DNA from: Nitrosospira sp.
GTDB taxonomy: Bacteria > Pseudomonadota > Gammaproteobacteria > Burkholderiales > Nitrosomonadaceae
NCBI GenBank assembly: GCA_013697655.1
Contig: JACCWK010000160.1
Span: 1-41,733, forward strand
DNA length: 41,733 bases
Direction: 5' to 3'
Made by a program: the position numbers and the translations under genes. Shown here piece by piece: positions 711 to 16,717 of the stretch. Each line of letters starts with the position of its first letter. Position 1 is the first letter of the stretch. The notes beneath the pieces were generated by a model, which was not told the origin of the DNA, did no database searches, and was given only the letters and a program-made list of their open reading frames with translations.

Positions 711-914
711 ATGATGACCGACACTGATGGCGAGATTCTGACGCTCGACGAAGTCGCTGCGTACCTAAAAGCTGGCAAGAGAACAGTTTATCGGCTTGCC
801 CAGAAGGGCGAGATTCCTGCGTTCAAGCTCGGCGGTACGTGGCGTTTCCGACGCTCGGAGCTGGACGCCTGGATTGCCGAGAGCATCCGCCAGAAGACGG
901 ACGAGGCAAAGTGA
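711..914 (+). CDS. Excisionase/MerR-like helix-turn-helix DNA-binding protein
   Basis: A 67-residue protein made of a single winged HTH of the excisionase/MerR type. It contains LTLDEVAAYLKAGKRTVYRL followed by GEIPAFKLGGTWRFRRSELDAWI, the usual 'helix-turn-helix, then wing with GGxWRF, then W' pattern of this family. The ATG at 711 (or 714) was chosen because the upstream in-frame extension to 591 shows no family features. It is the first gene of the island and runs straight into the SNF2 gene, so it is a likely regulator of the operon. A role as a recombination directionality factor is less likely because no integrase is visible. Family call is firm, role inferred. Confidence 0.8.
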   Translation: MMTDTDGEILTLDEVAAYLKAGKRTVYRLAQKGEIPAFKLGGTWRFRRSELDAWIAESIRQKTDEAK

Positions 915-981
915 ATACAAGCCGAGCCGCGCAAGTCAGGGCAATCGCATGCCTGAACAAGAACGAGGGGGATCTCCATTG

Positions 982-3852
982 GTGACACAACAGCTACTCA
1001 CGCCCTACCAAAGCCAATACTACGCGTGGCTGCTGACGCGTCGTGCGGCCAGCGACACGGTGGAATCGTTGGTGTCCACCCTGGTGGACTCGCAGGTGGA
1101 TCTCAATCCGCATCAGGTCGAGGCCGCGTTGTTCGCCTGCAAGAATCCCCTTTCTCGAGGCGTGATCCTGGCTGATGAGGTCGGACTTGGAAAGACGATT
1201 GAAGCTGGTCTTGTCATCTCTCAACGTTGGGCCGAGCGCCGTCGCCGCGTCCTGATCATCGTCCCAGCTAACTTGCGCAAGCAATGGCACCAAGAACTGC
1301 AGGACAAGTTCAATCTGCAAGGCCTGATTCTTGAGGCCAAAAAATACAACACGATCCGTAAACAGGAAAGCCAGAATCCATTCTTGATGCCGTCCGGGCC
1401 TGTCATCTGTTCCTACCAGTTTGCGAAGGCCAAAGCCAACGACATTAAAGACATCAAATGGGATCTGGTCGTGCTCGACGAGGCGCACCGCCTGCGCAAC
1501 GTTTACAAGACGAGCAACGTCATTGCCAAAACGCTCAAGGAAGCGCTGGCACACGTTCATTCAAAAGTGCTACTGACCGCAACGCCGCTGCAGAACTCGC
1601 TGCTAGAGCTCTACGGGTTGGTGAGCATGATCGACGACAGAGTTTTTGGAGATCTCGACAGCTTTCGCGCGCAGTTCATCCAGCAAAACAAGGAGCAGGC
1701 ATTCAATGCCCTGCGCACCCGCATCGCCCCAATCTGCAAGCGTACCTTGCGTCGGCAGGTGCAGCAGTACGTGTCATACACCGCGCGACGGGCCATCGTT
1801 GAAGAATTTACGCCGTCAACCGAGGAGCGAGAACTGTCCGCTCTCGTCGCCGATTATCTGCGCCGCCCGAATCTAAAAGCGCTGCCGGATGGCCAGCGGC
1901 AACTGATCTCGTTGGTGTTGTGGAAATTACTCGCGTCATCAACACACGCAATCGCTGGCGCATTGGAAACGATGGCCAAGCGCCTGCAGGGGCTGCTCGA
2001 TGAAGCTCCCGACGTTCCTGATCTCGCCGATGAGTTGGACGAGGACTATGAGTCGCTCGACGAAACCGCCGACGAGTGGAATGAACACGATGCCAGCGCC
2101 GAGTCGACAGCGAGAAGTGAGCGCGACGCAGTCACTCAGGAAATCGAAGAGCTTCGACACTTCAAGGCGCTCGCCACCAACATCCGTGACAACGCCAAGG
2201 GTAAGGCACTGCTGACTGCGCTGGAACGAGCGTTTGCCGAATTGGAACGTCTGGGTGCAGCCAAGAAGGCGATCATCTTCACAGAGTCCAAGCGAACTCA
2301 GGAGTACCTGCTGTCCTTGCTGGCGGATACCCACTATGGCGATGGCATCGTGCTGTTCAACGGCACGAACAGCGACGCGCGTGCTCAGACGGTCTACAAG
2401 GATTGGCTGGTGCGTCACAAGGGTACCGACAAAATCTCCGGCTCCAAGACGGCTGACACCCGTGCTGCCTTGGTCGAGCATTTTCAGGAACGCGGCACCG
2501 TCATGATCGCGACCGAGGCAGGCGCTGAAGGCATCAACCTGCAGTTCTGCTCCTTGGTCATTAACTACGATCTGCCCTGGAATCCACAGCGCATCGAGCA
2601 GCGCATTGGTCGCTGCCATCGATACGGGCAGAAGTTCGATGTGGTGGTGGTTAACTTTGTTGACCGTAGCAATGAAGCGGATGCCCGCGTCTACGAGTTG
2701 CTGGCGCAGAAATTCCAGCTCTTCGAAGGCGTGTTCGGTGCCAGCGACGAAGTGCTGGGTGCCATCGGCTCCGGCGTTGACTTCGAGCGGCGTATCGCCG
2801 ACATCTACCAGAACTGCCGCGACCCGGAAGCCATCAAGAGCAGTTTCGAGCAATTGCAGCTCGACCTGTCCGGTGAGATCAATGAGGCAATGATCAAGAC
2901 CCGCCAGCTTCTACTGGAGAATTTCGACGAGGAAGTGCAAGACAAACTTCGGATTCGAGCCGACGACAGCAGCAAAGCCCGAAACAGATACGAGCGAATG
3001 CTGATGGATTTGACCAGGGCCGAGCTTGGCGATCACGCTGAATTCGACGCCGATGGATTCAGACTGCTGCATTCGCCATGCGCAGACCTTGAGGGGATTG
3101 CTCTCGGGCGCTATGAATTGCCCCGCCGCAGCGGAGACTCCCATCTCTATCGAATCGGCCACCCGCTCGCCGAATGGGTTACTCAACAGGCAAAAGCACG
3201 ACAACTGGAGGGCGGCAGGCTCGTTTTCGATTACGACAGCTACGGCACACAGGTCAGCACCCTCAAAGCGCATCGGGGGCAAAGCGGATGGCTCGCGGTC
3301 AGCCTGATCTCCGTTGATGCGCTGGGCCAGCAAGAACAGCACCTGATCGTCTCGGCCATCACCGCCGAAGGCTTGCTACTTCCCGAGGACGATCCAGAAA
3401 AATTGCTGCGATTGCCTGCACAACAACAAGCGGAGAGTTTGTTTCCAGAGCCTAACGGCGCTCTGTCTACCGATATGGAAAATCGGAAGCTGCAAATCCT
3501 GCGCGAGATCAACCAACGCAATCTTGGTTACTTTGAGCAAGAAGTTGAAAAACTCGACGCGTGGGCCGACGACTTGAAACTGGGCTTGGAGCAGGAAATC
3601 AAGATCATCGACGGCGAGATCAAGGAGGTGCGTCGCACGGCGGCCGTCTCGCCCACGCTCGAAGAAAAGCTCGCTCATCAAAAGCGCCAGCGTGAACTGG
3701 AAGGCAAGCGCAGCAAACTACGCCGCGAACTGTTCAATCGGCAAGATGAGATCGAAGTACAGCGCAATGACGTCATCGCTCAACTTGAATTGCAGCTACA
3801 GCAGCAAGTCGATGAACAAACCTTATTTACGATTGAATGGGTGTTGCAATGA
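982..3852 (+). CDS. SNF2-family DEAD/DEAH helicase (DISARM DrmD/RapA-like)
   Basis: A 956-residue two-domain SNF2 ATPase. Visible motifs are Walker A DEVGLGKT (about residues 65-72), DEAH (166-169), TATP (199-202), a helicase C domain with the segment GAEGINLQ, and motif VI QRIGRCHRYGQ (about 539-549). The C-terminal third has long charged helices, probably coiled coil. The start is taken at GTG 982, which has a GAGGGGG Shine-Dalgarno about 10 bases upstream and begins MTQQLLTPYQ as I expect of relatives. ATG 949 is an alternative that adds 11 residues. Proteins of this kind translocate on double-stranded DNA and are found in phage-defence operons. Here it is followed by the KilA-N gene with an ATGA overlap. 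The precise role is inferred from context. Confidence 0.88.
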   Translation: MTQQLLTPYQSQYYAWLLTRRAASDTVESLVSTLVDSQVDLNPHQVEAALFACKNPLSRGVILADEVGLGKTIEAGLVISQRWAERRRRVLIIVPANLRKQWHQELQDKFNLQGLILEAKKYNTIRKQESQNPFLMPSGPVICSYQFAKAKANDIKDIKWDLVVLDEAHRLRNVYKTSNVIAKTLKEALAHVHSKVLLTATPLQNSLLELYGLVSMIDDRVFGDLDSFRAQFIQQNKEQAFNALRTRIAPICKRTLRRQVQQYVSYTARRAIVEEFTPSTEERELSALVADYLRRPNLKALPDGQRQLISLVLWKLLASSTHAIAGALETMAKRLQGLLDEAPDVPDLADELDEDYESLDETADEWNEHDASAESTARSERDAVTQEIEELRHFKALATNIRDNAKGKALLTALERAFAELERLGAAKKAIIFTESKRTQEYLLSLLADTHYGDGIVLFNGTNSDARAQTVYKDWLVRHKGTDKISGSKTADTRAALVEHFQERGTVMIATEAGAEGINLQFCSLVINYDLPWNPQRIEQRIGRCHRYGQKFDVVVVNFVDRSNEADARVYELLAQKFQLFEGVFGASDEVLGAIGSGVDFERRIADIYQNCRDPEAIKSSFEQLQLDLSGEINEAMIKTRQLLLENFDEEVQDKLRIRADDSSKARNRYERMLMDLTRAELGDHAEFDADGFRLLHSPCADLEGIALGRYELPRRSGDSHLYRIGHPLAEWVTQQAKARQLEGGRLVFDYDSYGTQVSTLKAHRGQSGWLAVSLISVDALGQQEQHLIVSAITAEGLLLPEDDPEKLLRLPAQQQAESLFPEPNGALSTDMENRKLQILREINQRNLGYFEQEVEKLDAWADDLKLGLEQEIKIIDGEIKEVRRTAAVSPTLEEKLAHQKRQRELEGKRSKLRRELFNRQDEIEVQRNDVIAQLELQLQQQVDEQTLFTIEWVLQ

Positions 3853-4688
3853 AAAACAAAAACATGGTGGTCCAGGGTGTCGAAATCAATGTCGCAACGC
3901 GGCATGAGCAGGACTACATCTCGTTGACCGACATGTTGAAAGCCAAGGACGGCGATTTTTTTATCTCAGATTGGCTGCGCAACAGGAACACGGTTGAGTT
4001 TCTGGGTATTTGGGAAAGTATTTACAACCCCAGTTTTAATTATGGCGAATTCGCCATAATTAAAAGCCAAGTTGGTCTAAACAGCTACAAAATCAGCGTT
4101 AAAGAAAGGGTGGAGAAAACCCATGCCATCGGACTACAAGCCACGGCGGGGCGGTATGGTGGCACCTACGCCCACAAAGACATTGCTTTTGAATTCGGTA
4201 TGTGGATCAGCGCCGAATTCAAGATTTACCTGATTAAAGAGTTTCAGCGTCTCAAGGACGAAGAGTCTCGCGCTACCGCGCTGGAGTGGAGTTTTCAGCG
4301 CACCTTATCCAAAGTTAACTATAAAATTCATACGGATGCCATCAAAGAGCGGCTGATCCCAGCACGCTTAACGAAGGCACAGACCAGTATTGTCTACGCC
4401 AGCGAGGCCGACTTACTCAATATCGCCTTGTTTGGCATCACGGCTGTCCAGTGACAAGCGAATCCCGAACAAAACGGCAATATGCGCGACGCGGCCACGC
4501 TAGAACAGCTCGTCGTGTTGTCGAATTTGGAAAGCATCAACGCGGTGCTGATTCATCAAGGCTTGGCTGCGTCGGAGCGTTTGGTGCAGTTGAATGCCAT
4601 CGCCATCACGCAGATGCGTTCGTTGGTTGGCATCAGCACGCTCAAACAGTTGAGCGATTCCGGCGCACAAAAAAGGATAGCGAAATAA
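3849..4688 (+). pseudogene. KilA-N domain protein, interrupted by an in-frame opal stop
   Basis: The ATG at 3849 overlaps the helicase stop (ATGA), showing translational coupling. The first 201 codons encode a KilA-N DNA-binding domain: ISLTDMLKAKDGD, ISDWLRNRNTVEFLGIWE, then GRYGGTYAHKDIAFEFGMWI and EFKIYLIKEFQRLK. A TGA at 4452-4454 ends this frame, yet the same frame continues with convincing family sequence (QANPEQNGNMRD, LEQLVVLSNLESINAVLI) to a TAA at 4686-4688. Relatives, as I recall them, have a tryptophan near this point, so TGG to TGA is the likely lesion. The product may be a truncated 201-aa protein that keeps the KilA-N domain, or a read-through product. KilA-N proteins are common in large DNA viruses, phages and defence islands. 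Confidence 0.8.
4034..4065. repeat. Perfect 32-bp palindrome inside the KilA-N gene
   Basis: The 16 bases TTTTAATTATGGCGAA (4034-4049) are followed without a spacer by their exact reverse complement (4050-4065). The sequence is translated as part of the KilA-N protein (FNYGEFAIIKS). A perfect 32-bp palindrome in coding DNA is not expected by chance. It could form a cruciform or mRNA hairpin, or serve as a dimeric protein-binding site. Confidence 0.95.
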
Positions 4689-5995
4689 CCGAGCCAACAA
4701 TTATTTACCCGAACTGCAAGACGGAAATTAAACTGACCGAATCACTGGCTGCACCGCTGATTGATGCGACACGAAAGCAGTACGAACAGCAACTGGCAAA
4801 GAAGAATAGCGACATTGCTCAACGCGAACAGGCGATGCGTGAGAAAGAAAAGCAGCTCGTTGAGGAAAAGCACAAACTGGATGAACAGATTGCAGATCAG
4901 GTAGCTGAACAACTGAAAAAAGATCGCACCCGGATTGCAGCGGAGGAGGCCAAAAAAGCTAAACAGGCTGCGGCATCAGACCTGGAGCAGAAATCGCAGG
5001 AGCTTGCCGAGCTTCAAGAGGTGTTGAAACGGAACAATGAGAAACTGGCTGAGGCGCAGAAGGCACAGGCTGAGCTAATCAAGAAACAGCGTGAACTGGA
5101 TGATGCCAAACGTGAACTGGAACTCACCGTTGAAAAACGCGTGCAGGAAGGACTCGACGCTACCCGCCAACAAGCCAAAAAAGAAGCCGAGGAAGAGCAG
5201 AAGCTCAAGGTAATGGAGAAAGAGCAGACCATTGCCGCGATGCAGAAGCAGATCGAAGAACTCAAGCGGCGCGCCGAGCAAGGCTCTCAACAGTTGCAGG
5301 GCGAAGTGCGGGAACTGGAACTTGAAAACCTGTTACGCACCAAATTCCCTTTCGATGCTATCGAGCCTGTAGCTAAGGGCGAATTCGGCGGCGACGTGCT
5401 GCACCGTGTTGTGGGCGCGGGCGGACAGTCCGGCGGCACCATTTTGTGGGAATCCAAGCGCACCAAGAACTGGAGCGATAGCTGGCTGGTAAAACTTCGC
5501 GATGATCAGCGGACTGCGAAGTCAGAAATCGCCGTGATCGTGAGCCATATATTGCCGAAAGGCGTTGAAACCTTCGAAATGGTAGAGGGCGTCTGGGTAA
5601 CACATCCTCGCGCTGCATTGCCGTTAGCTATGGTTTTGCGCCAGTCGTTGCTGGAACTTGCCCTGGCGCGGCAGTCGTCCGAAGGTCAGCAAACCAAAAC
5701 AGAAATGGTTTACCAGTACCTTACCGGCCCGCGTTTCCGCCAGCGCGTGGAAGCCATCGTCGAAGCATTCTCCACCATGCAGGAAGACCTCGACAAGGAA
5801 AGAAAGGTCATCATGAAGCAATGGGCTAAACGCGAAGAACAGATCGAGCGCGTGATGGGCGCGACGGTGGGGATGTATGGGGACTTGCAGGGGATTGCGG
5901 GGAAATCGTTGCAGGAGATTGACGTGCTTGAATTTCATACAATAGGCACTTCGGAAAGAATGCAACAGGCGCTTGTTCCGCCAACCAAGGAGTGA
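4685..5995 (+). CDS. DUF2130 coiled-coil protein with nuclease-like core; canonical start codon missing
   Basis: About 436 residues. The N-terminus TEPTIIYPNCKTEIKLTESL is followed by a very long Glu/Lys/Gln-rich coiled coil (roughly residues 30-210). A conserved DUF2130 core follows with FGGDVLHRV and TILWESKRTKNW, whose D and ExK spacing resembles a PD-(D/E)XK nuclease (inference). At the position where relatives start, 4685-4687 reads ATA, correctly placed after an AAAGGA ribosome-binding site and overlapping the KilA-N stop (ATAA instead of ATGA). This suggests ATG mutated to ATA. The only in-frame start upstream is GTG 4451, which would add 78 residues of non-family sequence. The first internal ATG lies near 4827, inside the coiled coil. 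Expression may be weak or absent. It sits between the KilA-N and DUF262 genes. Confidence 0.75.
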   Translation: MTEPTIIYPNCKTEIKLTESLAAPLIDATRKQYEQQLAKKNSDIAQREQAMREKEKQLVEEKHKLDEQIADQVAEQLKKDRTRIAAEEAKKAKQAAASDLEQKSQELAELQEVLKRNNEKLAEAQKAQAELIKKQRELDDAKRELELTVEKRVQEGLDATRQQAKKEAEEEQKLKVMEKEQTIAAMQKQIEELKRRAEQGSQQLQGEVRELELENLLRTKFPFDAIEPVAKGEFGGDVLHRVVGAGGQSGGTILWESKRTKNWSDSWLVKLRDDQRTAKSEIAVIVSHILPKGVETFEMVEGVWVTHPRAALPLAMVLRQSLLELALARQSSEGQQTKTEMVYQYLTGPRFRQRVEAIVEAFSTMQEDLDKERKVIMKQWAKREEQIERVMGATVGMYGDLQGIAGKSLQEIDVLEFHTIGTSERMQQALVPPTKE

Positions 5996-5997
5996 AT

Positions 5998-7725
5998 ATG
6001 TCAGCCACAAATTTCAAGACCGAAAACAATACCTATCGGAAGTTGATCGGCAACGGCCTCACTTACAGCATTCCTCGGTTCCAGCGTGATTACAGTTGGA
6101 CTGACGTTGAATGGGAAGATTTATGGACGGATATTCTTGGCACAATCCAAGAAGGTGGCGAGCCAGCCCACTATATGGGCTATCTCGTGCTTCAGTCACA
6201 AGATGAGAAGAGCTTTGATGTCATCGATGGACAACAGCGGTTAACAACGCTGACGTTGATTGTTTTAGCCGCACTAAAGAATCTGAACCGCTTGATAGAA
6301 GAAAAAAATCAACCTGAGCGCAATAAGCAACGGATGGACCAGATACGCCAAACCTATATTGGCTACCTTGATCCAGTTACCTTGGTGTCGCGCTCAAAAC
6401 TTACGCTTAATCGTAATAACGATGGCTATTTCCAGACCTATCTGGTTCCGATGGGTCATTTACCGCAAAGGGGGTTCCGGGCTTCTGAACACAGCTTGCG
6501 CAAAGCATTCGAGTGGTTTGAAAAACGTGTGCGCGAACATGCCAGGGATCGGGTAAAAAATGCAGGGGAAGACGAAGGGGTTGCGCTGGCCACTCTGGTC
6601 GAAACCATGAGCGACCGCTTGTTTTTTACCGTTATCAGCGTCACTGACGAATTAAATGCTTATAAGGTTTTTGAAACGCTCAATGCACGGGGTGTACGTC
6701 TTTCCTCTACTGACCTGCTAAAAAATTATCTCTTTTCCGTTCTGCATCGGGAAAACGAGCATCCTCACGAAATGAAGGTGTTGGAAGACCGTTGGGAGGC
6801 GATGGTCACTCGGCTGGGTAGCGAAAGTTTTCCTGATTTTTTGCGGGTTCACTGGATTAGTCGCCGAAGCTTTGTTCGGCAGTCTGAACTGTTTAAAACC
6901 ATTCGATCCAGGGTCGCCAGCCGTGAAGCCGTATTCGAGTTATTGCGCGGCATGGAAGAGGACATGGATACCTATCTCGCACTTACACAGCCGGAAGCAT
7001 CGCAATGGCCTGCTGATCTCAAAGGCTATGCGCGGGACTTGCGCATGTTCAGTGTGCGCCAGCCGTTCCCGTTGATTGTGGCGGCGCACCGTCGGTTTGC
7101 ATCTGGAGATTTTGAAAGTCTGTTACGCAGTTGCGTGATGATTTCATTTCGTTACAACGTCATCGGTAGTCAACCAACCAACGAGCAAGAACGCGTCTAT
7201 TACGCTGTGGCACAAAAAACTTCCAACGGGGAAATAGTGCAAGCTGCTGCGGCACTGGAAGCCATGAAAGCGATTTACCCAAGCGACGATGCTTTCAAGG
7301 CAGCCTTCTCCGAAAAAATCATACGCACCTCGAATTCCAGAAATTTGCGCATTGTTCGCTACATCCTGTGCGCCTTGGAGCGGCAGGCCGGTGGGCAGGA
7401 TTATGACTTCGAAAGCGATAGTTTCAATGTCGAACACATCCTGCCTCAGAATCCGGAAGATGGTTGGGAGACATTTGGCGACGAAGAGGTCGATGCGATG
7501 GCATACCGCTTGGGCAATATGTGCTTGCTGGCTAAAGGAGCTAACAAGGATATTGGCAATGCCAGTTTTTCCGTGAAAAAGCCTGTGTTAGCTGCCAGCG
7601 GTTTCGATCTGACCCGCAAAATTGCAGAAGATAACGCCGATTGGACGCCTGACCGCATCGCTGCCCGCCAGAAGTCATTAGCCAAATTTGCAACTACAGT
7701 CTGGCGGATAGCGCAGCTATCTTGA
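5998..7725 (+). CDS. DUF262/DUF1524 GmrSD-type restriction nuclease
   Basis: A 575-residue single-chain version of the modification-dependent GmrS-GmrD enzyme. The DUF262 half shows IPRFQRDYSW (25-34) and the nucleotide-handling motif IDGQQRLTT (from about 76). The C-terminal DUF1524 half has the HNH-like nuclease signature NVEHILPQ (H480) followed by YRLGNMCLL and a conserved asparagine region. Known members cleave phage DNA carrying modified, often glucosylated, cytosines in an NTP-dependent way. The ATG at 5998 has a strong AAGGAG at 5987-5992. The upstream DUF2130 stop lies between them, so the genes are closely coupled. No lesion is visible, so the gene appears intact. Confidence 0.9.
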   Translation: MSATNFKTENNTYRKLIGNGLTYSIPRFQRDYSWTDVEWEDLWTDILGTIQEGGEPAHYMGYLVLQSQDEKSFDVIDGQQRLTTLTLIVLAALKNLNRLIEEKNQPERNKQRMDQIRQTYIGYLDPVTLVSRSKLTLNRNNDGYFQTYLVPMGHLPQRGFRASEHSLRKAFEWFEKRVREHARDRVKNAGEDEGVALATLVETMSDRLFFTVISVTDELNAYKVFETLNARGVRLSSTDLLKNYLFSVLHRENEHPHEMKVLEDRWEAMVTRLGSESFPDFLRVHWISRRSFVRQSELFKTIRSRVASREAVFELLRGMEEDMDTYLALTQPEASQWPADLKGYARDLRMFSVRQPFPLIVAAHRRFASGDFESLLRSCVMISFRYNVIGSQPTNEQERVYYAVAQKTSNGEIVQAAAALEAMKAIYPSDDAFKAAFSEKIIRTSNSRNLRIVRYILCALERQAGGQDYDFESDSFNVEHILPQNPEDGWETFGDEEVDAMAYRLGNMCLLAKGANKDIGNASFSVKKPVLAASGFDLTRKIAEDNADWTPDRIAARQKSLAKFATTVWRIAQLS

Positions 7726-7741
7726 TGCGGTAAATAGCTCA

Positions 7742-9451
7742 ATGAAAAAACAAAAACTCGAACTCACCTGGATCGGCAAGGACGTGCGGCCTAAGCTGGA
7801 GCCGCGAATTTTGCTGGAAGACCCGGCGAGGAGTTATCACGCGAAGCATCGGGTGACGGACAACGACATCTTCGACAACCGACTGATCTTCGGTGACAAC
7901 CTGCTGACCTTGAAGGCGCTGGAGGCGGAGTTTGCGGGCAAGGTGAAGTGCGTGTTTATTGACCCCCCATACAACACGGGCAGCGCGTTCACGCATTACG
8001 ACGATGGGGTGGAGCACTCGATCTGGTTGGGGCTGATGCGCGACCGGCTGGAGATTATTCGACGGCTGTTAGCTGATGATGGATCGCTGTGGATCACCAT
8101 TGATGACAACGAGGCGCATTACTTGAAGGTGTTGTGCGATGAGGTGTTTGGACGCCTCAACTTTGTTGCCAATTGCTTTTGGCAGAAAGTTTATAGCGAG
8201 CGAATGGATGCTCGTGGCTTTAGCGTGTCTCATGATCATCTGATGGTTTATCAGAAGACGGACAAATTCTTTCCGCTCCAGCTCCCGAAAGATCAGAACG
8301 CAGCGCAGTTTGGATTCTTTGATGAATCCGTAAATAAATACTATCGACGCCGATCCTTGAGAAAGGAGGGTTCAGAGTCATTGCGGCAAGATCGTCCCAC
8401 TATGTGGTATTCGATTCTTGCACCAGATGGATCTGAAATTTTGCCTATCAAGCCTGATGGTACGGAAGGACGTTGGCGTTGGAAGAAAGAGAACGTGCCA
8501 GCGAATATGAGCGAGTTGGAGTTCATTCAAAAAGATGGACGCTGGGAAATATACGTTAAACAGTACATCGAAGAGAGTCCGACGAGACCCCCGGCCACCT
8601 TCTGGCCTAATGAAGAAGTCGGGCACAACCACGAGGCAAAACTAGAGGTCAGGGCTTTTAATAGTGCGGACGTATTTGACACACCTAAGCCAGAGCGCTT
8701 ATTGAAACGGGTTTTGGAAATTGCCACGACGCAGAATGACCTTGTCCTCGATTCCTTCGCTGGTTCTGGCACTACAGGCGCCGTCGCCCATAAAATGGGT
8801 CGCCGCTGGCTCATGGTCGAGCTGGGCGAGCACTGCAACACACACATCATCCCACGTCTACAGAAAGTCATCGATGGCGATGACAAGGGTGGTGTTACTG
8901 ATGCGATGAACTGGCAAGGGGGCGGCGGCTTCCGTTACTACAAGCTGGCGCCCAGCCTGATCGTCAACGACCGCTGGGGCAACCCGGTCATCAATCCCGA
9001 GTACAACGCCGCGCACCTGGCCGAAGCGCTGTGCAAGCTGGAAGGATTTAGCTACGCCCCGTCCGAGACGCAATGGTGGCAGCACGGCCATTCCAGCGAG
9101 CGCGATTTCATCTATGTCACCACGCAGAATTTTTCTGCCGATCAGCTACAGACGCTGTCTGACGAAATTGGCAGCGAGCAAAGTGTGCTCGTGTGTTGCG
9201 CAGCCTTTCACGGCGTGACCGCTGCCAAGGCGGCTGAGCGTTGGCCAAATCTAACGCTGAAGAAGATCCCCAAGATGGTGCTGGCACGTTGCGAGTGGGG
9301 CCATGACGACTACAGCCTGAACGTGGCCAATCTGCCGATGGCCAAGGTTGAGAAATCAGAGCCTGCGGCGGCCACCAGCGTCAACAAACCATCGAAAAAG
9401 AATAAGGCTGCACCTGGACAGGGCGGCTTGTTTGAGGGGGGTGAATCATGA
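7742..9451 (+). CDS. Beta-class N6/N4 DNA methyltransferase (type III Mod-like)
   Basis: A 569-residue site-specific DNA methyltransferase. Motif IV DPPYNTG (74-80) precedes the AdoMet-binding motif I DSFAGSGTTGA (about 337-347), the beta-class order of type III Mod subunits. DPPY predicts adenine-N6 methylation, although N4-cytosine cannot be excluded. The segment between the motifs is the likely target-recognition region, and a further domain follows the FxGxG motif. It lies 16 bases after the GmrSD gene and overlaps the next gene by ATGA. Together with the Res-like gene at 10695 it supplies both halves of a type III restriction-modification enzyme, with an unusual AlbA_2 gene inserted between them. 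The tail is Lys/Ala-rich and ends GQGGLFEGGES. Confidence 0.9.
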   Translation: MKKQKLELTWIGKDVRPKLEPRILLEDPARSYHAKHRVTDNDIFDNRLIFGDNLLTLKALEAEFAGKVKCVFIDPPYNTGSAFTHYDDGVEHSIWLGLMRDRLEIIRRLLADDGSLWITIDDNEAHYLKVLCDEVFGRLNFVANCFWQKVYSERMDARGFSVSHDHLMVYQKTDKFFPLQLPKDQNAAQFGFFDESVNKYYRRRSLRKEGSESLRQDRPTMWYSILAPDGSEILPIKPDGTEGRWRWKKENVPANMSELEFIQKDGRWEIYVKQYIEESPTRPPATFWPNEEVGHNHEAKLEVRAFNSADVFDTPKPERLLKRVLEIATTQNDLVLDSFAGSGTTGAVAHKMGRRWLMVELGEHCNTHIIPRLQKVIDGDDKGGVTDAMNWQGGGGFRYYKLAPSLIVNDRWGNPVINPEYNAAHLAEALCKLEGFSYAPSETQWWQHGHSSERDFIYVTTQNFSADQLQTLSDEIGSEQSVLVCCAAFHGVTAAKAAERWPNLTLKKIPKMVLARCEWGHDDYSLNVANLPMAKVEKSEPAAATSVNKPSKKNKAAPGQGGLFEGGES

Positions 9452-10698
9452 ACATAGAACACTTGCTACAACGCATTCGTTTGGGGGAAGACTCAAGCCT
9501 GGAGTTGAAGCGGCTTGTTTTGACGGACGGCGATAAAAATATCACACCTCATCCGGACAGTCTATCAGATGAGTTGGCGGCCATGGCGAATGCCAAAGGG
9601 GGTTTGTTGATTTTGGGGGTAGATGACCAAAGTCGGGATATTACGGGTATTGCACTTGCGCAAATTGATCGTGTTGAAAACTGGCTGACTGCTATTTGCA
9701 ATGATCGTATCAAGCCCCCCTTGGATATAGTGACGCGGCATGTTGAGCTGCCTGACGCACAAGGCGTGATGCAGCCGGTGATTGTGGTGGAGGTGCCGCA
9801 AAGTTTGTGGGTACATCAAAGTGCCAATGGCTGTTTTCGGCGCGTGGGCCATGCGAAACGTGAATTGCCGCCGGATGCACTGGCTCGATTATTTCAGCAG
9901 CGTAGCCAGGCGCGTCTTATCCGATTTGAGGAGCAAGCGGTTCCACGTTGTCATTTTGACGATCTTGACGCGTTGTTGCTTCGGCGCTTTATTAAGCCCG
10001 ATCAAGGCGAGGTGACGACACAGCTGAGCCGCTTGCACTTGTTGACCATAAGCGATGATCAGCTCACGCCGACGGTGGTCGGCGTATTGTTGTGTACGCT
10101 TAATCCGGCACGCTGGTTACCTAATGTAGAAATTCTGGCAGTGGCGCATTCGGGTACCCGTAACGACCCCAATGCCCAAGTCGATGCGCTTGAAATTCAA
10201 GGGCCGCTGGATCGCCAAATCATGGATGCTTTCCATTTCGTGCGCCGTAATATGCAAACGGTGGCCCGCAAGGCGTTGGGGCGGGTAGATTATCCACAAT
10301 ATCATCTAGGGGCAGTGTTTGAAGCGATAGTCAACGCGGTGGCTCATCGCGATTATTCGCAGCATGCCCAGCGCATTCGATTATTTATGTTTAGTGATCG
10401 TTTGGAAATTCATACGCCAGGTGCATTGCCGAACACTTTAGCGCTCGATTCCATGAGCCGCTTGTCGGTGCCTCGCAATGAAATACTAGCCAGCTTGCTA
10501 TCGCGATACTATCCGGTTGATGATCTTGCTTTGGGCAAGAGCTACCTGATGGATAGACGCGGTTTTGGTGTAGAAATGATTTTGCAAGAAAGCGAAAGGT
10601 TAGCGGGAATAAAGCCGATTTATGAGGTTGTCAGTGATTTAGAGCTGTGCCTCACTATTTATGCGGCGAAATTGCCTGGTGTTGAGGATGCAGTATGA
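9448..10698 (+). CDS. AlbA_2 (Schlafen-like) domain protein with C-terminal HATPase domain
   Basis: A 416-residue protein. The N-terminal AlbA_2/Schlafen-type domain has SSLELKR (17-22) and MANAKGGLLILGVDD (46-60). The C-terminal half has the HATPase_c_4 signature EAIVNAVAHRDY (about 292-303), LEIHTPGALPN and, near the end, a glycine-containing RRGFGVEMI. Family members are described as putative transcriptional regulators or nucleic-acid-acting proteins and are frequent in defence islands. The ATG overlaps the Mod stop (ATGA) and its own stop overlaps the Res start the same way, so it is translated as one unit with Mod and Res. The biochemical role here is unknown; regulation of, or a structural part in, the Mod-Res complex are the obvious options. 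Confidence 0.85.
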   Translation: MNIEHLLQRIRLGEDSSLELKRLVLTDGDKNITPHPDSLSDELAAMANAKGGLLILGVDDQSRDITGIALAQIDRVENWLTAICNDRIKPPLDIVTRHVELPDAQGVMQPVIVVEVPQSLWVHQSANGCFRRVGHAKRELPPDALARLFQQRSQARLIRFEEQAVPRCHFDDLDALLLRRFIKPDQGEVTTQLSRLHLLTISDDQLTPTVVGVLLCTLNPARWLPNVEILAVAHSGTRNDPNAQVDALEIQGPLDRQIMDAFHFVRRNMQTVARKALGRVDYPQYHLGAVFEAIVNAVAHRDYSQHAQRIRLFMFSDRLEIHTPGALPNTLALDSMSRLSVPRNEILASLLSRYYPVDDLALGKSYLMDRRGFGVEMILQESERLAGIKPIYEVVSDLELCLTIYAAKLPGVEDAV

Positions 10699-13436
10699 AT
10701 GCACGCGTACTGAACGCCGTCACCGGTCGCCTGTCTCTTCGCCCACCTCAGGCGGAATCTCTCTCCCGGCTGGTGCGGTCACTCGAAGCCTCACCTGAAA
10801 TGCTTGGGCATGAGCGGGATATTCCGTCAGTTCTGGCCAGCCTCAAAGCGGAGTTCCCGACGCTGGAAGACTTCGAGAGGGAGTTTCCGTCGCTGTGCTT
10901 TGCTCTAGCGACTGGCGTGGGCAAGACCCGCTTGATGGGGGCGTTCATCTCCTATCTGCATCTGGCGCACGGCATCAACAATTTCTTCGTGCTGGCCCCC
11001 AACCTGACGATCTACAACAAACTGATCGCCGATTTCACCCGCAATACACCCAAGTACGTATTCAAGGGCATCGCCGAGTTCGCCCAACAATCCCCCCTGA
11101 TCATCACGGGTGACAACTACGACCAGTCGGGTGCCGTGGTGGACGATCAGCCCAGAGGCTTCGCGCACGACGTGCGCATCAACATCTTCAATATTTCCAA
11201 GATCAATTCCGAAGTGCGTGGCGGCAAAGAGCCGCGCATCAAACGGATGAAGGAAGTGCTGGGCGATAGCTATTTCAACCATCTGGCAAATCTGCCCGAC
11301 CTCGTATTGCTGATGGACGAGTCGCACCGTTACCGAGCAAGCGCAGGTGTGCGGTCAATCAACGATCTGCAGCCACTGTTCGGTCTGGAACTGACTGCCA
11401 CACCGTTTGTGGAAGCAGGCAGCGGAAAGACCATTCCATTCAAAAACGTGGTGATGGATTACCCGCTGGCGCGGGCAATGGAAGATGGGTTTGTGAAGGA
11501 GCCCGCGGTCGTTACCCAGCGCAATTTCGATGCCAAGGCCCACACACCCGAGGAGATCGATAAGATCAAACTGGAAGACGGCGTGCGTCTGCACGAAACC
11601 ACCAAGGTAGAACTGCTGACCTACGCCCGCGAAAACGGCGTCAAGCTCGTGAAGCCCTTCATGCTGGTCATCGCGCGTGATACCACACACGCAGGGCAAC
11701 TGTTGGCACTGTTGGAATCGAACGCGTTCTACGAGGGGCGCTACCAGGGCAAAGTCATTCAGGTGGATTCCAGCCGCACCGGTGCGGAAGAAGAGGAAAT
11801 GATCACTCGTCTGCTGGCCGTGGAAAGCGTGGACGAGCCAACCGAGATCGTGATTCACGTCAACATGCTGAAAGAAGGCTGGGACGTGACCAACCTCTAC
11901 ACCATCGTACCGTTGCGCGCCGCGAATGCCCGCACGTTGATCGAGCAATCGATTGGTCGCGGCCTGCGTTTGCCGTATGGAAAACGCACCGGGGTGGCAG
12001 CGGTGGATCGCTTGAATATCGTCGCGCACGATAAATTCCAGGAAATCATCGACGACGCGAATCGCACGGATTCACCGATTCGGCTCAAACAGGTGATCCT
12101 CGATGCGCCGAGCGCCGACGACAAGAAGGTCAGCGTGCAGGTAGTCTCAGGTGCGATGACGCGGCTTGGTTTGACAGATGCACCGATGGTGGTGGTTGCA
12201 CCGACGGCGAATGGGGATGGGACAACATCACCTCCGGCGACTGCCACACCAGTTTTTGCAACGGACGCAGAACGCCAGGCAGCACGTGTTGTGATGGAGG
12301 TGATCGGCAAGTACGAGGTCAAGCGCGATCTGGTGCCGACCAGTAGTGCGTTGCTCAAGCCCGAGGTACAGAAGGAGATTTTGGCCGAGGTGGCCGAACG
12401 GCTGAAGCCGCTGCAAGGCAACTTGCTCGCCGGTGTTGATGATAGGGCGATGAAGTTCGATCTGGCGGCCGTGGTTGCCAAGACCACGGAGATCGTGGTT
12501 CAGCAGACCATCGACATCCCTCGCATTGCGGTCGTTCCAACAGGCGAAGTCACAACAGGCTTTCATCCATTCAAATTGGACGTTGCTCAGTTACACCTGC
12601 AGCCGGGCGAGCGCGAGATCGTCGGCCAAATGCTGCGCACCAACGAGCAGTTCACGTTGGCATCAGAGGTGGGGCTAAAGGAAGCGCGGCTGGAGGACTA
12701 CATCGTCCACGCGCTGGTCGACTTCGACGACATCGATTACTTCACGCACGCCGACCTGCTCTATGACCTCGCGGGTCAAATGGTGCAGCATCTACTGGGT
12801 TACCTGTCGGATGACGAGGCCCGCAGCGTGCTGGATCGGGATCGCCGTTTGATTGCGCGGGAAATTCATGCGCAGATGATGGCGCATTTCTGGGAGGAAG
12901 CGACCGAATATGCGGTTCAGGTGAGCCGTGGTTTCACCGAACTGAAGCCCTGCAATTACACCGCGACGGCAGGCCAGACGGCGCATCACTTCCGTGAAAC
13001 AGTAACCGAGACCAGCCGCATCAAGCAAATGCTGTTCGGCGGATTCACACGTTGCCTGTACCCACTTCAAAAATTTGACTCGGATACCGAACGGCGCTTC
13101 TCCATCATCCTGGAGCGCGATTGCCAGAAGTGGCTCAAGCCTGCCAAGGGCCAGTTCCAGATCTATTACAAATTGGGCACTGAGCAGCCAGAGTACATCC
13201 CTGACTTTGTCGCCGAAACAGATACGACCATCTACATGGTTGAAACCAAAGCTCGCACGGACGTGAATACCCAAGAGGTGCAGGCCAAAGCCAGCTCGGC
13301 AGCACGTTGGTGCAAACACGCGTCAGATCACGCCGCCGAAGTCGGAACCAAGGCGTGGAAATACCTGCTTGTGCCACACGACGAGGTGTCGGAGTCGAAG
13401 CGACTATCCGACTATCTGCGCTTTGAGGTGCTTTGA
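10695..13436 (+). CDS. Type III restriction enzyme Res-like helicase-nuclease
   Basis: A 913-residue superfamily 2 helicase fused to a nuclease. Walker A is ATGVGKTR (72-79), Walker B DESH (208-211) and motif III TATP (234-237). The C helicase domain includes LKEGWDV and SIGRGLRLPYG. The C-terminus has a PD-(D/E)XK nuclease: IPDF (D837), then YMVETKA (E850, K852). This is the domain order of type III Res subunits, which translocate or diffuse on DNA after ATP hydrolysis and cut when partnered by Mod. The start overlaps the AlbA_2 gene stop (ATGA). The 3' end lies in a 10-bp tandem duplication that changes the last residues (see the repeat). Intact by eye. Confidence 0.9.
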   Translation: MNARVLNAVTGRLSLRPPQAESLSRLVRSLEASPEMLGHERDIPSVLASLKAEFPTLEDFEREFPSLCFALATGVGKTRLMGAFISYLHLAHGINNFFVLAPNLTIYNKLIADFTRNTPKYVFKGIAEFAQQSPLIITGDNYDQSGAVVDDQPRGFAHDVRINIFNISKINSEVRGGKEPRIKRMKEVLGDSYFNHLANLPDLVLLMDESHRYRASAGVRSINDLQPLFGLELTATPFVEAGSGKTIPFKNVVMDYPLARAMEDGFVKEPAVVTQRNFDAKAHTPEEIDKIKLEDGVRLHETTKVELLTYARENGVKLVKPFMLVIARDTTHAGQLLALLESNAFYEGRYQGKVIQVDSSRTGAEEEEMITRLLAVESVDEPTEIVIHVNMLKEGWDVTNLYTIVPLRAANARTLIEQSIGRGLRLPYGKRTGVAAVDRLNIVAHDKFQEIIDDANRTDSPIRLKQVILDAPSADDKKVSVQVVSGAMTRLGLTDAPMVVVAPTANGDGTTSPPATATPVFATDAERQAARVVMEVIGKYEVKRDLVPTSSALLKPEVQKEILAEVAERLKPLQGNLLAGVDDRAMKFDLAAVVAKTTEIVVQQTIDIPRIAVVPTGEVTTGFHPFKLDVAQLHLQPGEREIVGQMLRTNEQFTLASEVGLKEARLEDYIVHALVDFDDIDYFTHADLLYDLAGQMVQHLLGYLSDDEARSVLDRDRRLIAREIHAQMMAHFWEEATEYAVQVSRGFTELKPCNYTATAGQTAHHFRETVTETSRIKQMLFGGFTRCLYPLQKFDSDTERRFSIILERDCQKWLKPAKGQFQIYYKLGTEQPEYIPDFVAETDTTIYMVETKARTDVNTQEVQAKASSAARWCKHASDHAAEVGTKAWKYLLVPHDEVSESKRLSDYLRFEVL

Positions 13437-13440
13437 GGTG
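13421..13440 (+). repeat. 10-bp tandem duplication at the Res stop codon
   Basis: CTTTGAGGTG occurs twice head to tail. The first copy encodes FEV in the Res frame. The second shifts the reading so that the gene stops at TGA 13434-13436. Removing one copy would let the frame continue as FEVKG and stop at TAG a few bases later, so the duplication replaces only the last two residues. Confidence 0.85.
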
Positions 13441-13484
13441 AAGGGGTAGCCCCTCGTCTGCAACAACCGGGGGAAGGAGAGCCG

Positions 13485-14315
13485 ATGGCATCACAAGTTG
13501 AACGCATATTGATTCTGGCCAAAACGTATCCGTCGCCTAGCGCGCAGCATGTCGAAACATCGTGTGTTGCGGGTATCAATGAGCACGGAGTGATGCGACG
13601 CTTGTACCCGGTGCCATTCCGGCTCATCGAAGAAGGCCAGAAGTTCAAGAAGTGGCAGTGGATTGAGGTGCGTGTCGAGAAGGCGAACAAGGATCATCGG
13701 GCGGAAAGCTACAAGCTGTTTGTCGACACGATCAACTGCGGCGACGTGATCGACACGAAGAGGCAGTGGGAAGCGCGGTGGCCTTGGATCGAGAAGCTGC
13801 CGACTTTCACGAGCTTTGATGATCTTGAAGCTAATCGTGTTGAGACGGGTTTGTCGCTGGCGCTGATGCGGCCGAAGCAGGTGTTGACGCTGGAGATCGT
13901 CGAGGCGAGAAATGCGGAGTGGACCGGCGAGGAGCGGGATAAGCTACTGAGCTACGAGATGCAAGGGCAGTTGTTCAGCGACACTGAGGTCAAGAAGATG
14001 ACACAAACGCTGAGGAAGGTACCGTTCGACTTCTACTACCGATACACCTGCGACACGCCCGAAGGCGAAAAGGTGTTTAAGCACAAGATCGTCGACTGGG
14101 AGGCGGGCATCCTGTTCTGGCACTGCCGCCAGAGTCACGGGGTCGATTGGGAAAAACCGTTTCGGGCCAAACTTGAAGAGGACTTGACGGGAAAGGACTT
14201 GATGTTCCTGATGGGCAATCAGCACCGGTTTCAAGACCAGTGGCTGATCATCAGTTTGATTTACCCACCTAAGCGAAAGCCAGCCGAAGTGACGCCGCAG
14301 GGCTCGCTGTTTTAG
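13485..14315 (+). CDS. Unrecognised 276-aa protein at the end of the restriction island
   Basis: I do not recognise a named domain. The protein is soluble, without signal peptide or membrane segment, and begins VERILILAKTYPSPSAQHVET. Several tryptophan-rich stretches are visible (KKWQWIEVRV, ARWPWIEKLP). The tail LMGNQHRFQDQWLIISLIYPP looks strongly conserved in character. A GGAAGGAG ribosome-binding site precedes the ATG, 48 bases after the Res stop, so it is likely the last gene of the operon. Its 3' end overlaps the convergent DUF488 gene by 47 bp. Pairing with DUF488 suggests that the two act together, but no function can be assigned. Confidence 0.75.
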   Translation: MASQVERILILAKTYPSPSAQHVETSCVAGINEHGVMRRLYPVPFRLIEEGQKFKKWQWIEVRVEKANKDHRAESYKLFVDTINCGDVIDTKRQWEARWPWIEKLPTFTSFDDLEANRVETGLSLALMRPKQVLTLEIVEARNAEWTGEERDKLLSYEMQGQLFSDTEVKKMTQTLRKVPFDFYYRYTCDTPEGEKVFKHKIVDWEAGILFWHCRQSHGVDWEKPFRAKLEEDLTGKDLMFLMGNQHRFQDQWLIISLIYPPKRKPAEVTPQGSLF

Positions 14316-14751
14316 CGACTGCCTTGATGTGCGTGACACGCGCACCGCAGTAATCTTTGACCGCATTCGCCACCATCGAGCGATGGCAGAAGTTCGAATC
14401 AGCCTCGTAGCAAAGCAGCGCGCAGTTCGACGATGTAGCAAGGGCTGAAAGCTCGGAGATGGCTTCGTCTTGTGATTTGAGGTGCTTCAGGAACTCTTCG
14501 GTATAGCGCTTCCAATTTCCATCCTCGCGATAGCGGTCGCGCACGGGTTTCGGGCAGCCCAAATTCACCATATGGACATAGTCCCGTCCAGAGAGGTTCA
14601 ATACATTTGCAAGCGCATTCTTCGAGAAACCAGGCTTGCGGGATAGGGGCAGCTCGCGGACGTCGACAACCATGTCGATATCGTTCTCAGCGAGCAGCGA
14701 CATGAATGCGTCAATGTTAAGTCCTTCGTAGCCGATGGTGAAAACAGTCAT
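14269..14751 (-). CDS. DUF488 family protein
   Basis: A 160-residue protein of the DUF488 family. It starts TVFTIGYEGLNIDAFMSLL, has the conserved VVDVRELPLSRKPGF segment (about 28-42), and a C-terminal CYEADSNFCHRS motif with paired Cys/His characteristic of the family. The biochemical activity of the family is not established to my knowledge. The gene is convergent with the 276-aa gene and their coding ends overlap by 47 bp, so each transcript would be antisense to the other's 3' end. A GAGG ribosome-binding site lies inside an inverted repeat upstream. Confidence 0.85.
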   Translation of the reverse strand: MTVFTIGYEGLNIDAFMSLLAENDIDMVVDVRELPLSRKPGFSKNALANVLNLSGRDYVHMVNLGCPKPVRDRYREDGNWKRYTEEFLKHLKSQDEAISELSALATSSNCALLCYEADSNFCHRSMVANAVKDYCGARVTHIKAVAKTASPAASLRLAFA

Positions 14752-15821: not shown

Positions 15822-16120
15822 TGGCCACCCCCGAATACCTTGAGTTTGGTGATCGCGCTCGCAACCAGGGCAAGCAGGAAGCCGGTGGCGATCATCTTGA
15901 TAACGGTCTCCCATGCGGTATGCTTGGCGGTGTTGTAGGCGTCCAGCAGGCCGCGCAGATCGCGGATGTCGTGGGCAGCGTCATCGCCGTTCAGGCCGAC
16001 ATCGGTCAACGCGCGCTTGGCACCGCGCTCGGCACCGCGCTCGGCGGCCTGTTCGAGCAGGCGTTCGAACTCATCCCGTGGCATGACGACCGTGCCGTTT
16101 TGTAGATTAGGTGGGCTCAT
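15818..16120 (-). CDS. Phage DUF6127-like small membrane protein
   Basis: 100 residues. An N-terminal helix rich in Glu/Arg/Ala (DEFERLLEQAAERGAERGAK) is followed by ALTDVGLNGDDAAHDIRDLR and one membrane helix near the C-terminus (IATGFLLALVASAI). This matches the small phage protein family next to three-TM holins (DUF6127 as I recall). A 12-bp tandem repeat within the gene (about 16018-16041) duplicates the AERG unit. The ATG has a GGAG at good spacing. It probably assists lysis; its exact role is unknown. Confidence 0.7.
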   Translation of the reverse strand: MSPPNLQNGTVVMPRDEFERLLEQAAERGAERGAKRALTDVGLNGDDAAHDIRDLRGLLDAYNTAKHTAWETVIKMIATGFLLALVASAITKLKVFGGGQ

Positions 16121-16160: not shown

Positions 16161-16717
16161 CGGGGGTGTGAGGGGGACGGATCAGATAATGATGCCGGGG
16201 CTCCAGCTATTGATTTTGAAAGCCCGGGCGCGAGTTGGGCCGGCCTTGAACAGGTCTAAGCATGAACCTGGCCGCTTCCTCTTTTCTTTATTATAGGAAC
16301 GACTTATTCAGAGGTTCCTCGGTACGTTGCATAGCTCCAATGCGGCTGTTCAGGCATCGACTACTAATGTCGCGTTGACGCGCAACCGGTTGAGTGATAG
16401 ATTTTCGACACAGAGAGGTTGTAAATTTTCCCGTCTTTTTATCGGACATGGTGTAGTTTTAGCTATTGCATTGATCGAATGTGGGCATGCGGGGAATATC
16501 AATTTCCGGCATCCTGCGCAGCCTCGCCGGTTTGAAATAATTAGGCATAGCAATCTCTGATAGATCGTCCGACGAAGTTTGCAGTAGAAGCGGAGCGTCA
16601 GCTGCGTATCCTTGGAATTGTAGACCGGGCATGATTTGCGTAGTGAGCCCTGTGGTCATCCGAGTTTTCCAGCAGCATGCCACGGAGGACTCATTCACAG
16701 GTTCCTTCAGACGACAT
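16161..16717. other. Prophage edge and non-coding region before the MutS-like gene
   Basis: On the minus strand the first 100 bases hold a short open stretch ending at 16172 with LFKAGPTRARAFKINSWSPG and a stop just before the terminator. It could be the C-terminal stub of a deleted phage structural gene, which is inference only. From about 16265 to 16717 I see no gene, RNA or repeat that I can support. The promoter of the MutS-like gene should be here. Confidence 0.4.

Follow-up and report, generated by a model that had tools for sequence, protein, structure and literature searches.

Does the run of overlapping defence genes near one end of a Nitrosospira contig encode a single machine, a set of independent systems that happen to be adjacent, or a constant system that carries exchangeable parts? 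The window analysed here (41,733 nucleotides) is the entire contig C39, one of the 258 contigs of a 3.03 Mb assembly, with the reading beginning at base 1, and by open reading frame map and domain scans it contains nine plus-strand genes at 711-14315 and one minus-strand gene at 14269-14751 (Table 1). A preliminary description of this DNA took the stretch to be a defence operon, which its gene content and domain scans bear out, and proposed that the whole might be a single multi-layer system. The evidence below favours another reading, to which we give a probability of about three in four: that a modular restriction-modification operon, with a constant SNF2-Mod-Res core and two slots for exchangeable defence cassettes, is present here in one copy.

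Layout of the operon

Table 1. Features of the operon and its neighbours in the window. L072 is a Nitrosomonas mobilis locus; loci in other records are numbered L046 and upward.
Feature	Positions	Strand	Basis
HTH_17 (excisionase-type) small protein, optional part	711-914	+	Pfam HTH_17, 72.3 bits
SNF2, core 1, RapA-like Swi2/Snf2 translocase	949-3852	+	Pfam SNF2-rel_dom, Helicase_C
Slot A (SNF2-Mod interval)	3853-7741		no DNA similarity to L072; flanks 79-83% identical
KilA-N cargo (PADLOC PDC-S22), interrupted	3849 (or 3837)-4689	+	PADLOC profile match
DUF2130 cargo	4691-5995	+	Pfam DUF2130, 269 bits
GmrSD-family endonuclease cargo (PADLOC HEC-06)	5998 (or 5992)-7725	+	GmrSD_N 129.9, GmrSD_C 101, HEC-06 777 bits
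Mod, core 2, type III-like DNA methyltransferase	7742-9451	+	N6_N4_Mtase 149 bits; PADLOC MTase_III 706 bits
Exchangeable target-recognition segment of Mod	8186-8743	+	no DNA match to L072
AlbA_2 (Schlafen-type) + HATPase_c_4, slot B cargo	9448-10698	+	Pfam
Res, core 3, SF2 helicase + PD-ExK nuclease	10695-13436	+	Pfam ResIII; PADLOC REase_III 710 bits
Ninth gene, PDC-M19B, neighbour outside core, no Pfam match	13485-14315	+	PADLOC, 194 bits
DUF488 protein, PDC-M19A, neighbour outside core	14269-14751	-	Pfam DUF488; PADLOC, 121 bits

ATGA overlaps can be read in the sequence at the SNF2/KilA-N (3849-3852), Mod/AlbA_2 (9448-9451) and AlbA_2/Res (10695-10698) junctions, and a GTGA overlap joins DUF2130 and GmrSD at 5992-5995. 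The coupling of Mod, AlbA_2 and Res through 4-nt overlaps, put forward in the preliminary description, thus stands; nine genes do share the plus strand, but DUF488 is on the minus strand, and the KilA-N/DUF2130 overlap is spurious (below). The core and the exchanged parts differ in base composition: GC is 56% in SNF2, 55 and 58% in the two ends of Mod and 57% in Res, against 49% in KilA-N, 53% in DUF2130, 49% in GmrSD, 51% in AlbA_2 and 47% in the Mod segment, and these steps in GC coincide with the slot and Mod-segment borders.

The HTH_17 protein is probably a regulator, and a relative lies immediately upstream of SNF2 in 6 of the 35 core loci for which 600 bp or more of upstream sequence is available (best 80 of 526 set). 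A tandem-repeat scan returned a single short array, at 16012-16045, beyond the operon. Two further observations concern the rest of the contig. An open frame without a Pfam match occupies 3-158 on the minus strand at the contig edge; by eye it resembles what we take to be the end of an IS1182-type transposase, and the left contig break may lie inside an insertion sequence. At 16631-18364, near the defence genes, a short MutS-like protein (577 aa) is encoded, whose MutS domain V scores above the cut-off and domain III below it.

The core proteins

RapA is the best match of SNF2 among solved sequences, and the predicted SNF2 structure aligns with RapA over residues 16-967 (Z 21.1, rmsd 10.3, 696 aligned). 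The structure matches listed for SNF2 cover mostly the helicase part (34-617), over which other Swi2/Snf2 motors score slightly above RapA; the RapA rows alone reach the C-terminus, at high rmsd values of 10.3 and 10.6, and the model is of middling quality (mean pLDDT 75.3, pTM 0.58).

Mod is nearest to type III Mod subunits among solved structures. It is an N6_N4-family amino-methyltransferase with a central target-recognition segment, the combination by which a type III Mod is recognised, and the motifs read in the protein, DPPY and then FAGSGTT, have the order that we take to mark the beta class of amino-methyltransferases. Mean identity to 15 relatives is 80-91% over residues 1-120 and 321-520 and falls to 20-26% over residues 161-280; the tail (521-569) is 44-51% identical. 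Res likewise has the make-up of a type III Res, an SF2 helicase with a C-terminal PD-(D/E)XK nuclease, and its ATGVGKT motif and P836-D837...E850-x-K852 are invariant across 15 aligned sequences; its matches to solved chains are weak (29 bits for EcoP15I Res).

L072 lacks the AlbA_2 gene between Mod and Res, and these two core genes share 1 nt there. A search with AlbA_2 gave matches in 13 of 61 genomes, one other above 100 bits at 51% identity over nearly the full length and two more at 106-116 bits. It also matched 76 plasmid records, all at less than 60% identity, and many of the 40 matches listed adjoin a TrlF-family ATPase.

Conservation of the SNF2, Mod and Res order

The scan of named genomes confirmed 526 Res loci, of which the best 80 were analysed, so close relatives are over-represented among them. 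Gene order was counted in the 52 loci whose sequence extends 8 kb or more upstream of Res (28 of the 80 have less and were left out). SNF2, Mod and Res all occur in this order on the same strand in 43 of these 52 (best 80 of 526 loci), and Mod is found in 50. Of the nine left over, L138 has its SNF2 immediately outside the stored edge, and L102 has SNF2 with no Mod detected. By their record names the 43 include Nitrospira (L122), Opitutaceae (L137), Verrucomicrobia (L140) and Phycisphaerales (L144) as well as Proteobacteria, although several records are metagenome bins and individual taxon assignments may therefore be wrong. The preliminary description had placed SNF2 with Mod-Res and had made its case depend on a gene order conserved elsewhere; for these three genes the order is kept in many genomes. 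Of the four genes whose co-occurrence it had named as a check (SNF2, Mod, AlbA_2/HATPase and Res), AlbA_2/HATPase is exchangeable.

A sample of class genomes was kept apart from the 80 loci (L046-L065 and L146-L156; some are perhaps the same records, as with L053 and L127, whose contigs both measure 14041). Here Res relatives were found in 22 of 369 genomes (E <= 1e-60) and SNF2 relatives in 22 of 369 (E <= 1e-100), and the two co-occur in 13 genomes versus about 1.3 expected by chance, a figure of our own arithmetic that treats the two 369-genome samples as identical. Of the 22 genomes with SNF2 relatives, 17 have a same-strand methyltransferase gene after SNF2; in four of the remainder (G137, G170, G223, G314) the sequence stops at a contig edge, and the fifth (G370, locus L062) is decayed, with SNF2 and Res remnants fused and Mod gone. 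SNF2 is not obligatory, since 9 of the 22 class genomes that contain Res gave no SNF2 match, and three loci (L049, L056, L063) have other genes, but not SNF2, in the neighbourhood of Mod-Res.

SNF2 relatives also occur outside this Res clade (L148, L149, L152), where they head sets with another N6_N4 methyltransferase and a ResIII-type helicase; between these genes lie a GmrSD-type and a RhuM-type gene in L149, and KilA-N and RhuM-type genes in L152. In L148 and L152 the methyltransferase is 1119-1139 aa long and the ResIII-type protein 1079-1114 aa, with genes in between. One of the two Thauera sp. 2A1 copies (L102/L166) consists of SNF2, a shortened slot A gene, a RhuM-type gene and Res, with no Mod found. 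The window's own genome carries, on contig C244 (L163), a further type III-like Mod-Res pair that is unrelated to the first; after it come a second AlbA_2/HATPase-like gene, a gene that by eye is ParA-like, and a MutS of full length.

Cargo of the two slots

What lies between the core genes differs from locus to locus. Slot A, the SNF2-Mod interval, was read in the 43 loci that have both genes, and slot B, the Mod-Res interval, in the 65 of 80 that have both. Leaving out ORFs shorter than 110 aa and, in slot A, ORFs on the opposite strand, the cargo amounts to 115 ORFs (77 in slot A and 38 in slot B) in 38 clusters (best 80 of 526 loci), some of which hold split ORFs, the 19 AIPR ORFs coming from 17 loci. 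Cluster representatives include AIPR/AbiU (19 ORFs), IetA, IetS, PtuA (Septu), KwaB (Kiwa), HEC-01A and HEC-01B; further cargo comprises SMC-like ATPases, HerA, a Zeta-toxin-like protein, Fic, Abi_2, RhuM (PDC-S05, 11 ORFs), YhcG (PDC-S02, 7 ORFs) and GmrSD and AlbA_2 types. Four representatives have no Pfam match (L106:6291-7031, L106:8616-9998, L115:5703-6269 and L053:5034-6113), which makes them good candidates for new anti-phage genes and the slots a route of discovery.

Slot A is filled in all 43 complete named loci (best 80 of 526); in the class sample, the distant locus L061, whose Mod frame is split, has nothing in slot A. Of the 43, 20 have an empty slot B, with Mod and Res overlapping by 1 or 4 nt in 16 of these 20. 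The preference of families for a slot is loose: AlbA_2 occupies slot A in L060 and L065, and ORFs of the RhuM cluster occur in slot A at two loci. Genes of this kind, lying between the core genes of another defence system and recurring there, are embedded cargo.

All four cargo families of the window recur as cargo elsewhere: KilA-N in L070, L107, L108 and L152, DUF2130 in L107, L108, L122, L133 and L138, GmrSD in L063, L094 and L100, and AlbA_2 in L060, L065, L069, L070, L105, L114 and L130. This recurrence, like the overlap of the genes on one strand, would suit one integrated multi-layer system in which everything from SNF2 to DUF488 acts as a unit, as the preliminary description had envisaged. 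However, each of the four occurs elsewhere without the others, their combinations differ, and the window's full set is carried by no other locus examined; in addition the distribution of slot content over the Res tree is close to random (below), KilA-N is interrupted, and DUF488 is on the opposite strand as part of a neighbouring pair. We therefore regard a single integrated system as very improbable. The core stays constant while cargo swaps at two fixed places, and this marks a modular system and not a fixed nine-gene machine.

Edges of the exchanged parts

How sharply are the slots bounded? DNA matches between the window and L072 cover 979-3846, 7742-8185, 8744-9453 and 10684-13385, with none between, so that similarity ends 6 nt before the SNF2 stop, restarts at the Mod start, is lost over the Mod segment (8186-8743) and AlbA_2, and is back 11 nt before Res. 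In a closer pair, L093 and L094, SNF2 DNA is 95.7% identical up to 11 nt before its stop, slot A is without similarity, and the match restarts 12 nt into Mod. Among 30 pairs of loci that share no slot A family (the pairs share loci and hence are not independent), 28 have a left slot A edge no further than 30 nt from the SNF2 stop, and 28 have a right edge no further than 30 nt from the Mod start; the L076/L080 pair is an outlier at both edges. At slot B the match restarts within 30 nt of the Res start in 12 of 13 pairs (which again share loci), while the left edge has a median position 105 nt before the Mod stop and is within 60 nt of it in just 2 of 13; since this edge lies well before the Mod stop, the Mod tail varies too.

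Slot content was also compared with a quick Res tree of 44 rows, made without bootstrap, in which two long branches meet. Slot A content (24 states) requires 33 changes on this tree versus a shuffled mean of 34.9, and 15 of 200 shuffles needed no more changes than the real data; slot B content (12 states) requires 21 versus 23.2 (2 of 200), and RhuM 6 versus 8.3 (6 of 200). These values are near the shuffled means, so slot content is spread over the tree almost at random, with slight inheritance that is strongest for RhuM. The second Thauera sp. 2A1 copy (L165) and Solimonas fluminis L090 are 98.4% identical in DNA from SNF2 through slot A into Mod, differ in the Mod segment, and are 92.7% identical beyond it; this pattern fits recombination between copies, being such as recombination would leave.

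Because the order is conserved and the breakpoints are sharp, the gene arrangement appears to be more than chance. An ordinary defence island, a chance grouping of independent systems about a plain type III Mod-Res with SNF2 incidental, would account for the Mod-Res genes that lack SNF2 (L049, L056, L063 and the nine class genomes), and the PDC-M19 pair beside Res is just such a neighbour. We nevertheless consider this explanation unlikely for the operon itself, where cargo sits inside, with the SNF2 stop and the Mod start each no more than 30 nt from the slot A edge in 28 of 30 pairs, and where the same-strand methyltransferase after SNF2 is missing from the class sample only at the four contig edges and the decayed locus.

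The slot A genes of the window

The KilA-N frame contains an in-frame TGA at 4452-4454 (codon 206 of 283); the PDC-S22 match covers only profile positions 1-205 of 281, and the frame runs on to 4689. KilA-N is free of internal stops in L070, L107 and L152 and has one in L108, and the stop in the window may be an assembly error instead of a mutation. Near 4688, the position homologous to the DUF2130 N-terminus, no ATG, GTG or TTG is present, which leaves the start and activity of DUF2130 uncertain; its apparent GTG start at 4451, and with it the overlap with KilA-N, arises from the 3' part of KilA-N read out of frame. The KilA-N/DUF2130 pair is probably decaying, unless the assembly is wrong at that place. 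In GmrSD, both the GmrSD_N and GmrSD_C domains score over the Pfam cut-off.

A neighbouring PDC-M19 pair

Downstream of Res, DUF488 (M19A) adjoins the ninth gene (M19B) with overlapping 3' ends, the arrangement that defines PDC-M19. Beside this chassis the pair is otherwise found only in the decayed locus L062 (L062:1601-2870), at 80-84% identity (84% for DUF488). DUF488 and the ninth gene are a separate candidate pair, a neighbour and not part of the core.

A model for the operon

Starting from the computed gene content, conserved order, exchange and sharp edges, we infer biochemical activities, a role for SNF2, a recombination route and co-transcription as follows. The central target-recognition segment would let Mod recognise a short site, and Mod would methylate host DNA, probably at adenine; Mod and Res together would survey DNA, and Res would cut unmodified invader DNA. 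The RapA-like SNF2 would be an ATP-driven translocase, most likely serving the complex by clearing or remodelling DNA to which proteins are bound. The SNF2/Mod and Mod/Res borders would serve as docking slots for unrelated defence cassettes, presumably co-transcribed with the core and exchanged, most simply, by recombination within the conserved core genes, and the Mod target-recognition segment would be a third exchangeable cassette.

For the window's own cargo we reason by analogy with BREX, where the available parts of PMC12839542 report that GmrSD complements the system and that Schlafen-family proteins carrying a minimal histidine kinase are auxiliary or back-up effectors. GmrSD would cut DNA whose modified bases evade Mod-Res, making a division of labour between Mod-Res against unmodified and GmrSD against modified DNA plausible, and AlbA_2/HATPase would serve as a Schlafen-type back-up effector. 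A more ambitious and rather doubtful extension is that SNF2-Mod-Res is a dedicated docking chassis that also triggers the plugged-in effector (hence a slot A that is filled in all 43 complete named loci), with unrelated nucleases and toxins as interchangeable outputs and the Mod segment as input; the empty slot A of L061 speaks against a strict need for a slot A effector.

Near-identical cores with different cassettes at the same place, such as those headed by the SNF2 genes of L093 and L094, are a natural experiment, which opens to direct test the question whether embedded defences need the operon that houses them or simply lie in it. The module edges are exact enough for cloning, and the recurrent addition of a RapA-like translocase to type III-like restriction is of interest in itself.

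Comparison with known systems

The window system resembles type III restriction-modification in its Mod, a relative of the solved type III Mod subunits, and in its Res, which matches type III Res models; it differs in its conserved SNF2 gene and two cargo slots, and its Res is remote from EcoP15I Res. A type III system proper has two genes and no further constant subunit, whereas SNF2 lies upstream in 43 of the 52 loci, though not in all.

The helicase also recalls DISARM, SNF2 scoring 659 bits against PADLOC DrmD and 667.5 bits against NCBIfam DrmD_b (NF038318), and it matches the PADLOC BrxHI and BrxHII models at 245.6 and 175.8 bits. Derivation from a DISARM-type system, or a relation to BREX, with a DrmD/BrxHII-like helicase at the head, could be read into these scores. 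The DrmD_b score, however, falls below the cut-off of 950, so SNF2 does not qualify as DrmD; among the matches listed for the ten window proteins there is no DrmA, DrmB or DrmC gene (the DrmA model appears solely as a lower-scoring SNF2 match, 143.5 bits) and no PglZ, BrxC or DUF499 ATPase, and we give such an origin hardly any credence. Nor are mad models of MADS among the matches listed for these ten proteins; mad3 is matched only by ATPase cargo of relatives. DISARM, BREX, BR/Hma and MADS were accordingly rejected as a home for the locus, their marker genes being missing among the matches listed, and the preliminary description was right that it fits none of DISARM, BREX, MADS and plain type III, SNF2 being an extra constant part relative to the last.

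With BREX and BR (Hma), as presented in the available parts of PMC12839542, the window system shares a RapA-architecture Swi2/Snf2 helicase that occurs with a methyltransferase; a RapA-like layout is reported there for BrxHII and a related one for the BR helicases. It differs from them in having no DUF499 ATPase, PglZ or BrxC and in a separate type III-like Res as the predicted cutter.

Our literature search found no account of a two-slot SNF2-Mod-Res chassis; Payne et al. 2024 and most subscription papers were outside its scope, and we claim no priority. SNF2-Mod-Res with cargo slots is not described in the available parts of PMC12839542, PMC10853773, PMC8565338, PMC12988326, PMC12255303, PMC12458937, PMC13092281, PMC7251935, PMC7641849 and PMC11090510.

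The embedding of defence genes in other systems is an already established principle, of which BREX and BR, with their auxiliary effectors (PMC12839542), are one example. A close parallel is DarTG2 in a type I restriction system, which in the available parts of PMC12255303 is a defence cassette between restriction subunit genes with a small regulator gene first, at a site called a potential recombination hotspot; that chassis is type I, and one slot is described. The HEC and PDC embedded candidates (Payne et al. 2024 preprint), as treated in the available parts of PMC12988326 and PMC12255303, which cite that work, are likewise defence genes inside another multi-gene defence system, and the window shares members with them: its GmrSD is HEC-06 and its KilA-N PDC-S22, and in its relatives RhuM is PDC-S05 and YhcG PDC-S02. 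The window differs from those embedded defences in its chassis, which is SNF2-Mod-Res and not Hma, and in combining two slots with an exchangeable target-recognition segment.
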